This document shows, piece after piece, positions 7,065-10,354 of a stretch of 64,000 bases of DNA; position 1 is the stretch's first letter; every line of letters begins with the position of its first letter. The position numbers and the translations under genes were made by a program. The notes below the pieces were generated by a model. It worked only from the letters and a program-made list of their open reading frames with translations, did not search any database and was not told the origin of the DNA. The DNA is from Acidobacteriota bacterium (lineage in GTDB: Bacteria > Acidobacteriota > Blastocatellia > RBC074), in NCBI GenBank assembly GCA_016196035.1, contig JACPYM010000015.1:1-64000 (forward strand). The letters run 5' to 3'.

Positions 7065-7328
7065 ATGCTAGTGTTGATGGGTATGAAGAACGCCCGCCAG
7101 CGAATGATAAACGCGTCCGAAGTCAGTGAGTTTGCCTTTTGCGCCAAGGCCTGGAAGCTCAAGTGTGAAGGTGTGGTGGCGGACAGTCCGCACCTGGACG
7201 CCGGGACGGCCTATCACCGGGCGCATCAATCCCACCTCTATCTGGCCCAACGCCTGCGCAGGCTGGGGCTGGCCCTGGCTTTGCTTGCTTTGGCCGCAAC
7301 CCTCATCTGGTTCATTATCAAACTATGA
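7065..7328 (+). CDS. Split Cas4-like nuclease, N-terminal subunit with C-terminal membrane helix
   Basis: A small protein of up to 87 residues that carries the N-terminal elements of the Cas4/RecB-type 4Fe-4S nuclease fold. INASEVSEFAFCAKAW (Cys26) corresponds to the first Fe-S cysteine segment of Cas4, and GTAYHRAH (Gly47, His51) to nuclease motif I. The chain then runs RLRR into one hydrophobic helix (about 67-86) and ends. The rest of the nuclease is encoded by the next gene, which starts inside this stop codon (ATGA overlap at 7325). The two are therefore surely co-translated and probably form one heterodimer. Starts at 7065, 7077 and 7083 are all possible; none has a strong ribosome site. 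Function beyond nuclease-like is unknown. Confidence 0.7.
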   Translation: MLVLMGMKNARQRMINASEVSEFAFCAKAWKLKCEGVVADSPHLDAGTAYHRAHQSHLYLAQRLRRLGLALALLALAATLIWFIIKL

Positions 7329-7846
7329 CATTAGGCTGGCTGCTCCTCTTTTTGTTCGCACTGGCCGTTTTCTGCTGGCTACTGGCGCGGCAATTACGCC
7401 AGGGGAGTGGCCTGCTAGGTGGTGAGATTATTTATGAAGATGCGAGCGGCAAAAATCCCCGTGTGTTGGTTTCCCGCCGTTACGGTTTACGCGGGAAACC
7501 GGACTACCTGCTCAAAGATGGCGCTGGCTGGGTCATCCCGGTGGAATTGAAATCCGGGCGGATGCCACGCAATGGCCGCCCGTACCGGTCGCATGTGCTG
7601 CAACTCGCCGTTTACTTTCTTTTGGTGGAGGACGTGCTTCAGCAGGAGGTCGCGTATGGACTCGTGCGTTATCAAAATGGCGCGCTCCGGGTGCGGAACT
7701 CAAAGCAATTGCGGAAAGAGTTGCTGGCGGTAGTCAAAGAGATGAGGGCCGTGCTTGCTTGTGATAATGCGCGGCGGAGTCATCAGGACCCGCGCCGTTG
7801 CGAAGCATGTTCGATGGCGCACGGTTGTGATGAGCGGCTGGCCTGA
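7325..7846 (+). CDS. Split Cas4-like nuclease, catalytic subunit with N-terminal membrane helix
   Basis: 173 residues. One membrane helix (about 2-22) followed by RQLRQ, then the core of a PD-(D/E)XK nuclease: GKPDY with Asp60, PVELKSGR with Glu74 and Lys76, then HVLQLAVYF with His90, Gln93 and Tyr97. The end has Cys159, Cys162 and Cys168 (CEACSMAHGC), the three C-terminal Fe-S cysteines of Cas4-type enzymes. With Cys26 of the upstream subunit this makes the usual four-cysteine cluster set. Arginines flank both membrane helices so that both soluble halves would face the cytoplasm. No cas1, cas2 or CRISPR array is in the window. It is probably an intact enzyme split in two by a membrane hairpin, not a decayed gene. 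Confidence 0.78.
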   Translation: MTLGWLLLFLFALAVFCWLLARQLRQGSGLLGGEIIYEDASGKNPRVLVSRRYGLRGKPDYLLKDGAGWVIPVELKSGRMPRNGRPYRSHVLQLAVYFLLVEDVLQQEVAYGLVRYQNGALRVRNSKQLRKELLAVVKEMRAVLACDNARRSHQDPRRCEACSMAHGCDERLA

Positions 7847-8506: not shown

Positions 8507-10354
8507 ATGTTAAACAACAATACGTTGCAACAAAACAACCCCGCAACGACCCCTGCCTGGCGCAAGCCAGTGCGGAATTTAGGCTTGGCTTTAATCCTTT
8601 CACTCGCCACGCTCGGCAGCGCTACCGCCGTGCTCGGACAAGAACCCGACGACAAACCGCTGGCCATTCCCGCGCGGCTCGGTCTCAAATCGGGTACGTT
8701 GACCCCGATGCCCGGCCGGAATATCTATCAAGCGAATCCCATCGTGAACGAAACGGCGGGGACTCAACAGGTAGCCGGGACGCGTTCGACCAGCGGCGTT
8801 TCCGACATGGTTGGCACGCTGAGCGTGCAAAATTTTCAAGGCACGCAGGCGAATCTTTCCAACACGCACGCTTCGGCGGATGGCTTCCGCAACTACTTTA
8901 ACACTTGGTACACAGCCAACTTTGCGCGGCGTGATTCGGCTGTTTCGGTGTGGCTATATAACGATATAGCGGGCGGCGACAATTATGATCTGTGGACTTC
9001 CGGCGGCACGGATTTGGGGATTGATGCCGTGCGCGCGGCGTGGCATTCCGGCCACGGCGGCATGTGGTCCACCAATGTCTTCTTCGCACCGATGGGCGCC
9101 AACTGGGGCGGGCGCGGTTGGAACGCCTTTTCCAATCAAATGTTCCTGGGCGGGAACAATTACAGCTATGGCGACGAACGGCTGCGCTATATGTTCTGGG
9201 ATACTTGCAACAGCGTGATGGTGAGCGGCGGGAACGATCCTTATTCGACCTGGGGTACGCGTTCGCGCGGCGTGCGGATGGTTTTTGGGTACGAGACGAC
9301 GTCGGTTGATAGTGGCGACTATGGCAAGTATTTCTGGGAGGAATGGAACAAAGGCAAGACCCTGTCGCAGGCGTTCCTGGATGCAAGCTGGCGCATCAAC
9401 ACGGGCCAAAGCCCGTCCGTGGTGGCCTTTGGCAGCGACGCGACCGATGCCACCAATCGTTTGAACAACGAACGTTACCTTTACGCTGGCTCGGTTGGGA
9501 ATAACTGGGGGCAATGGAGATGGTATTACGCGCGCAGTGCCGCTCGTGCCGAACTGTCTTCGCCTGTGAATGCGGCCAACCTCTTCCGCCAGGGGCAGAC
9601 ACCGATGCGGATTTACAGCGTCGCCGCGAAGAGCAATACGGCGGATGAATTCGTTGAAACGGCCCGCATCTTTGGGATTAAGGTCAACGGCGAGTCGCAA
9701 ATTCAAAACCGTCCGCAGGGCTTGCGCGCCATCGAGACCCCTGGCGCCACCTTGGTGATGGAAGCCAATGGCAATTTTGAATTGGCCCTGAAGGCGACTG
9801 CGACACCCAACAATGACCAGCAGATCGTGCTGGGTGATGATGAACTGATTCGCCAAGCCCGTGAACTCGCCGGACAGTTGAGCTTGCTCAAAGGACAGGA
9901 ACTGACGGTGGGCTTGATTCGCGATCTGAACGAAAGTGGTGGCGGCAATGCGGCGACACTGGCGGCGCGCGTCGTGGAAAAGACGGTGATTTTCGATCAG
10001 ATGATTGACGGCTTGCCCTTTATTGATCCCCAGGCAGGTCACCTCGAAATCACCTTTGACGCACGCACCGGTCAAGCGCGCAGCGTTCGCAGCACGCTCC
10101 AGCAGATGGACACTGCCAAACTGGCCGATGCTGCTCCGACTCAGCAGTTGTCGGTGGAAGACGCGCGCTACGAAGCGTTGTCCAAAGCTCAATTGCAGGC
10201 CAAAGCCGGTCAGCTAGAGATCGTTGCTGGCAGCGAAGCCACAGGCTGGCATTTGCTGGACGGGAAGATCGTGCCGGTGTTCCGGGCGGAGGTCAAAGAT
10301 CCGAATCAGCAATTCGGACGCCCGCAACTGGTCGTTGTTCCCTTGATCAAGTAA
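8507..10354 (+). CDS. Secreted protein with a caspase/gingipain-like His-Cys pair (DUF6345-like)
   Basis: 615 residues. A long n-region and hydrophobic segment LGLALILSLATLGSATAVLG predict Sec export, ending near residue 45. In the region of about 120-340, WHSGHGG (His183 in SGHG) is followed 51 residues later by FWDTCNSV (Cys234), and later by a helix GKTLSQAFLDASW. This spacing and order resemble clan CD cysteine peptidases (caspase, gingipain, CHAT), where SGHG and a DxCxS block carry the dyad. I recall similar proteins grouped as DUF6345, but cannot confirm. The C-terminal 250 residues show no motif I recognise. ACGAGGAGACACA before the ATG is a strong ribosome site, and a clear terminator follows the stop. 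Peptidase activity is an inference. Confidence 0.7.
   Translation: MLNNNTLQQNNPATTPAWRKPVRNLGLALILSLATLGSATAVLGQEPDDKPLAIPARLGLKSGTLTPMPGRNIYQANPIVNETAGTQQVAGTRSTSGVSDMVGTLSVQNFQGTQANLSNTHASADGFRNYFNTWYTANFARRDSAVSVWLYNDIAGGDNYDLWTSGGTDLGIDAVRAAWHSGHGGMWSTNVFFAPMGANWGGRGWNAFSNQMFLGGNNYSYGDERLRYMFWDTCNSVMVSGGNDPYSTWGTRSRGVRMVFGYETTSVDSGDYGKYFWEEWNKGKTLSQAFLDASWRINTGQSPSVVAFGSDATDATNRLNNERYLYAGSVGNNWGQWRWYYARSAARAELSSPVNAANLFRQGQTPMRIYSVAAKSNTADEFVETARIFGIKVNGESQIQNRPQGLRAIETPGATLVMEANGNFELALKATATPNNDQQIVLGDDELIRQARELAGQLSLLKGQELTVGLIRDLNESGGGNAATLAARVVEKTVIFDQMIDGLPFIDPQAGHLEITFDARTGQARSVRSTLQQMDTAKLADAAPTQQLSVEDARYEALSKAQLQAKAGQLEIVAGSEATGWHLLDGKIVPVFRAEVKDPNQQFGRPQLVVVPLIK

Follow-up and report, generated by a model that had tools for sequence, protein, structure and literature searches.

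Gene pair and Cas4 motifs

The window, by which we mean the whole 64,000-nucleotide stretch of acidobacterial DNA that was analysed, contains two short genes on the forward strand that share the four bases ATGA, at once the stop of the first (gene 1) and the start of the second (gene 2). Both open reading frames were located in the window sequence, with the following features.

7083..7328 (+): gene 1, N-terminal part of a Cas4 fold followed by a C-terminal predicted membrane helix; 81 aa, or 87 aa from the ATG at 7065
7140..7142 (+): Cys26 of gene 1 (87-aa numbering; C20 in the 81-aa form), invariant in 18 aligned gene 1 proteins (alignment A6)
7215..7217 (+): His51 of G47-x3-H51 in gene 1 (G41 and H45 in the 81-aa numbering), invariant in alignment A6
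7263..7319 (+): predicted membrane helix of gene 1, LGLALALLALAATLIWFII, Kyte-Doolittle mean 2.63, with an R-rich N-terminal flank
7325..7328 (+): ATGA overlap of gene 2 start and gene 1 stop; a 4-base overlap is found in most bacterial and archaeal pairs
7325..7846 (+): gene 2, N-terminal predicted membrane helix followed by the C-terminal part of a Cas4 fold; 173 aa
7331..7387 (+): predicted membrane helix of gene 2, LGWLLLFLFALAVFCWLLA, Kyte-Doolittle mean 2.56, with an R-rich C-terminal flank
7502..7552 (+): catalytic PD-(D/E)XK residues of gene 2, D60 (7502-7504), E74 (7544-7546) and K76 (7550-7552), invariant in alignments A4 and A7
7601..7615 (+): Q93-x3-Y97 of gene 2, a RecB/Cas4-type nuclease motif, invariant in alignments A4 and A7
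7775..7828 (+): R-[NS]-H of gene 2, then C159-x2-C162-x5-C168 (three Fe-S cysteines), invariant in alignments A4 and A7

The start of gene 1 is uncertain: comparison with its relatives speaks for the ATG at 7083 (81 aa) rather than that at 7065 (7065-7328, 87 aa), and profile A6, which was built on gene 1, recovered the gene at 7083-7325. Four residues (C, W, G and H) are invariant across the gene 1 proteins of alignment A6. We take the cysteine to occupy the position of the first Fe-S ligand of Cas4, and the G-x3-H is the N-terminal active-site motif of RecB/Cas4-type nucleases. While G-x3-H lies on gene 1, Q-x3-Y lies on gene 2, which also carries D60, within the motif G57-K-P-D60, and E74-x-K76. 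The four cysteines of the putative Fe-S cluster are divided as well, one on gene 1 and three on gene 2, and all are invariant in the alignments; the Arg-x-His that precedes the latter three is a signature of the membrane-anchored Cas4 family described below.

A preliminary description of this DNA had proposed that the hallmarks of Cas4 are spread over two ATGA-joined genes, each with one membrane helix at the split point and with both soluble parts facing the cytoplasm, and this picture held up. Every residue that it named was found in the sequence, and each half has a single strong hydrophobic segment (means as listed above). Net charge across the 14 bacterial pairs is +3.5 on the N-terminal side of helix 1 and +2.8 on the C-terminal side of helix 2, with about +0.6 on the other sides, and archaeal pairs follow the same trend; this charge asymmetry flanking the helices predicts that both soluble parts are cytoplasmic. 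Membrane insertion itself rests on hydropathy prediction only, and the orientation on hydropathy and charge. By estimates of dN/dS in pairs with usable dS (0.2-0.8 for gene 1, 0.15-0.45 for gene 2), both halves are under purifying selection.

Gene 2 exceeds the Pfam cut-offs for both Cas_Cas4 (31.5 versus 22.7 bits) and PDDEXK_1 (35.4 versus 22), and solved Cas4 chains were matched by profile. Its score falls slightly below the cut-off of the NCBIfam cas4 equivalog TIGR00372 (61.7 versus 65 bits), as expected for half a protein, so that on the score of gene 2 alone the window pair is not classed as a CRISPR Cas4 equivalog. On the Cas4 models of PADLOC, gene 1 covers only the first 45-63 positions, and gene 2 mostly those from about 45-60 to the end.

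Relatives in Bacteria and Archaea

A first genome scan with a single protein as query gave no matches; a three-row alignment as query recovered archaeal relatives. In-depth coverage was confined to Acidobacteriota and Thermoplasmatota. Among Blastocatellia, a profile of gene 2 matched 14 of 162 genomes at E <= 1e-18, and an independent profile of gene 1 matched 13 of the 162 at E <= 1e-5. Both halves occur in the same 13 genomes, a patchy distribution (13/162), and in 13 of 13 they are adjacent in the order gene 1, gene 2. The 14th gene 2 match (G746) sits at the very start of a contig and is cut by the contig end. The preliminary description would have been undermined if homologues of the second protein always stood alone without the first, and partners were therefore looked for: the 13 Blastocatellia genomes and all 35 archaeal split loci examined are paired, with gene 1 directly upstream of gene 2 in each of the latter, and G746 is the only exception. 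Another intact pair is present in the acidobacterium BP7.bin24 (L049), and a decayed one in a member of another acidobacterial order (G378:C3; L019, L130), where GKPDY has become GKPDC and gene 2 stops before the C-terminal cysteines. No single-chain form was found among the bacterial relatives.

Archaea of the Thermoplasmatota present a second architecture. An alignment-based scan detected proteins in Thermoplasmata that form a single chain of about 325 aa, and a single-chain profile matches 189 of 293 Thermoplasmatota genomes at E <= 1e-3 and some 174 of the 293 at E <= 1e-20 (counted from the table), a threshold beyond the 1.7e-15 that ordinary Cas4 proteins reach with the bacterial profile A1. 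The membrane Cas4-type family is found in about 60% of the Thermoplasmatota sampled. Fetched loci contain either a single chain or a split pair, the latter with one helix per gene at about 35 loci. By a simple hydropathy count, the single chains mostly have 2, 4 or 8 membrane helices between their N- and C-terminal nuclease parts, and the odd counts are probably threshold effects; single-chain versions with an internal membrane hairpin, a form that the preliminary description had raised as a possibility, thus do exist in Thermoplasmatota, as far as the predicted helices go. Four single-chain archaeal genomes also encode an ordinary Cas4 (about 200 bits), so the membrane single chain is a separate paralogue.

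Several archaeal loci have features of their own. Three single chains have about eight helices (L109:2991-4649, +; L115:3480-4976, +; L186:1031-2527, -), with hairpins that look as if duplicated, and that of L109 adjoins the gene for ribosomal protein L15e. Also beside rpL15e is the single chain of L111 (2962-4884, +), whose frame runs past the C-terminal cysteines into a TRAM-like-looking domain. Among the archaeal split pairs (L098-L108, L148-L171), the overlap codon is ATA (ATAG or ATAA) in 26 of 35. Most of these ATA-overlap pairs have a Shine-Dalgarno-like GAGGTGAT or a close variant just 5', and some lack any in-frame ATG, GTG or TTG for more than 200 bases (L155, L162: 437). Coupled re-initiation at AUA may be how archaeal gene 2 is translated, or a -1 frameshift may yield a fused protein. 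Stop-codon readthrough was considered and rejected, as some pairs are in the same frame across the stop (L049, L057) but most are not.

In a tree of 104 sequences and 192 columns that included four ordinary Cas4 proteins, the membrane family stands apart from those four with a bootstrap of 96, and all archaeal single chains fall into one clade (bootstrap 100). The split forms fall into a bacterial group (56), the main group of archaeal split forms (93) and another archaeal group that is small and deep. This placement of split forms and single-chain clade points to an older split form and a later fusion; the deep nodes are weak (56-68).

Structure models cover archaeal single-chain relatives, not the window pair, and no inter-residue distances were read out from them. 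The model of a single chain with one hairpin (L172), the natural analogue of the pair and 35% identical to window gene 2, has a pLDDT of 93.3 and a pTM of 0.86, with long helices at 31-83 and 88-126 forming a hairpin inserted after the N-terminal helices and ahead of the beta sheet. Its best structural match is Cas4 (Z 19.9 over 180 residues at 2.6 A, spanning 1-265); in Foldseek E-value order, Dna2 comes first with Cas4 chains close behind. A four-helix single chain (L048) gave a lower pTM of 0.71, its membrane part being poorly predicted, and aligns best with the Cas4 domain of 7mi4 (Z 19.4 over 169 residues at 2.1 A, model residues 1-322). In both models the alignment with Cas4 extends over the whole chain, the hairpin region standing as an insertion. 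The structure-search matches that are not Cas4-like mostly involve the long helical hairpin only.

Genomic context and comparison with known nucleases

The window pair is flanked by phoU-phoB-phoR on one side and by a DUF6345 gene on the other. The latter (8507-10354, +), downstream of the pair, encodes a secreted-looking protein of 615 aa (DUF6345 match, Pfam E 4.2e-15). Other bacterial pairs have CBS-ClpS-ClpA or PfkA genes nearby, and the archaeal loci have rpL15e, the secY operon or ABCE1 as neighbours; names of neighbouring genes in these other bacteria and archaea are our own reading of the sequences. The neighbourhood is constant within genera, varies among lineages and consists of housekeeping genes, on which grounds a defence-island context was rejected. 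In a relative of the same genus, the gene immediately upstream of the pair encodes a PrsW-like membrane protease (L044, 3-1112, +), and in four archaeal loci such a gene is two genes away (e.g. L098, 1539-2240, -); this is probably coincidence.

We also agree with the preliminary description that no CRISPR genes lie near the pair. The direct neighbours are phoU and the DUF6345 gene rather than cas1 or cas2, the Cas1 fragments of this genome are on contigs C45 and C111 and not on the window contig (C15), and no Cas1 match was obtained in 7 of 14 carrier genomes. A part in a CRISPR adaptation module was rejected for want of nearby cas genes and because Cas1 is confined to other contigs. An origin in phages or plasmids was likewise set aside: 50,697 phage records and one viral-contig scan yielded no match, and the plasmid sequences that matched did so at less than 37% identity and over the nuclease part only.

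The Cas4/RecB-type nucleases that we know of, or met in this analysis, are soluble. Dna2, human EXO5, AddB and AdnA have nuclease domains with a Cas4-type fold (EXO5, AdnA and Dna2 align with a single-chain model at Z of about 11-14); unlike the membrane family they are soluble, and Dna2, AddB and AdnA are fused to helicase modules. With Cas4 itself (CAS-Cas4 and solo-Cas4; PF01930, TIGR00372) the membrane family shares the fold, as modelled for its archaeal single chains, and PD-(D/E)XK, Q-x3-Y, G-x3-H and the 1 + 3 cysteines in the same order, and the Cas4 structures 7mi4 and 8d3l are the best structural matches of the single-chain relatives. It differs from Cas4 in being made of two chains, or of one chain with internal membrane hairpins, in its lack of cas neighbours, in the Arg-x-His before the three cysteines and in the bootstrap-96 separation. 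The pair belongs in the Cas4/PD-(D/E)XK superfamily and is not a CRISPR Cas4. The Argonaute-associated Cas4 family protein ACE1 (9iab, 9iac) is likewise a stand-alone, non-CRISPR protein of Cas4 fold, but it was solved as one chain and is named for an association with Argonaute, and no Argonaute was seen around the pair loci examined. Solo-Cas4 (Hudaiberdiev et al., 2017; PMC5704561) is similar in being a Cas4-family gene outside CRISPR loci; in the main text of that survey, to which this statement is confined, the word 'transmembrane' is absent and the sole 'membrane' belongs to the name of a neighbouring gene. Our literature search found nothing relevant on membrane or split Cas4; subscription papers and preprints were outside its scope, and absence is not proof.

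A split membrane nuclease of this kind might have as its main job a barrier against incoming DNA, degrading DNA of phages or plasmids, or DNA taken up in transformation, during its passage through the membrane. A membrane location with an inward active site fits such a role, gene 2 matches not only Cas4 models but also, weakly, the DruK (Druantia) nuclease models of PADLOC, and a Cas4-like nuclease of Synechococcus elongatus is reported to reduce plasmid transfer or maintenance (PMC10653904). The pairs, however, lie among housekeeping neighbours that are constant within genera and not in defence islands, the phage records and the viral-contig scan gave no match, and about 60% of the Thermoplasmatota sampled carry the family. 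We regard a barrier as unlikely to be the main function, while keeping it under consideration.

Two subunits of a putative membrane nuclease

That the two genes make one enzyme is indicated most strongly by fusion. Half profiles built from archaeal single-chain relatives only were searched against 1164 six-frame segments from the whole window; the N-half profile retrieved only gene 1 (E 1.7e-7, next best 1.4) and the C-half profile only gene 2 (E 1.6e-43, next best 0.087). Exactly the two segments of the pair are singled out, which excludes a chance match. That gene 2 is the nuclease by itself, with gene 1 as a distinct small partner or regulator in the membrane, might be argued from the weakness of gene 1's own matches to nuclease families (PDDEXK_1 E 0.072; Cas4 models E 0.005-0.02). 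Yet gene 1 aligns with the N-terminus of the archaeal single chains and retains the Cas4 cysteine and G-x3-H, the fused chains keep the order gene 1 part then gene 2 part, and the N-terminal Fe-S cysteine of Cas4 is on gene 1, not gene 2; we find this very doubtful. Equally little speaks for a non-catalytic Fe-S membrane protein, a sensor or scaffold that has retained the Cas4 fold: activity data are absent and a membrane hairpin is unusual for this fold, but the active-site D, E, K, Q and Y of gene 2 are invariant or nearly so across bacteria and archaea. A single-chain gene broken by frameshift or assembly error, as overlapping frames, fused relatives elsewhere and the one decayed pair (G378/L019) could hint, can be dismissed along with a pseudogene, since 14 bacterial and about 35 archaeal pairs keep the split with junctions that vary, purifying selection acts on both halves, and no single-chain form was found among the bacterial relatives.

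We hold with good confidence that the pair is one enzyme, a heteromeric, membrane-anchored Fe-S nuclease of the Cas4 family (PD-(D/E)XK, RecB-like), its Fe-S binding and DNA cleavage being inferred. Sequence and comparison establish that there are two halves with their respective motifs, that these are obligately paired and under purifying selection, that fused versions exist, that charge is asymmetric about the helices, and that the single-chain relatives have a Cas4 fold in their models. We propose that the gene 1 product would contribute the N-terminal part of the fold, the first Fe-S cysteine, G-x3-H and one membrane helix, and the gene 2 product the second helix, the catalytic D60/E74/K76, Q-x3-Y and three Fe-S cysteines. 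The two helices would pair as a hairpin whose counterpart in archaeal relatives is one continuous chain; given such pairing, the cytoplasmic parts could close into a single Cas4 fold with cluster and active site shared between the subunits, neither of which would be expected to function alone.

Cleavage of DNA at the inner face of the membrane is inferred from the invariant residues. Characterised archaeal Cas4 proteins are 5'-3' exonucleases whose Fe-S cluster is held by four conserved cysteines (PMC12538437), and by analogy with characterised Cas4 proteins the pair is probably an exonuclease on DNA ends. Its role is the weakest step of our proposal. Context and distribution lead us, with modest confidence, to favour upkeep or processing of DNA at the membrane over defence: most likely, the chromosomally encoded pair maintains or processes DNA close to the membrane and does not serve CRISPR adaptation. 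In the loci examined, neither neighbours nor co-occurrence indicates a substrate.

Taken more broadly, the pair may represent an undescribed family of membrane-embedded Cas4-type nucleases common to Thermoplasmatota and Blastocatellia, in which two membrane subunits together build the cluster and the active site, and which serves some conserved DNA transaction at the membrane outside CRISPR; the archaeal one-piece form would have arisen by fusion and then gained extra hairpins. We offer this tentatively, as a proposal for which belief and doubt are nearly in balance. That about 60% of the Thermoplasmatota sampled carry the family suggests that it has a general function in the cell; we found none assigned to it. 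If true, the family would represent a new way of tethering DNA processing to the membrane, with a gene cut inside a membrane hairpin and natural one-piece counterparts, and would clearly exemplify an Fe-S enzyme in which two subunits supply the cluster ligands (1 + 3).
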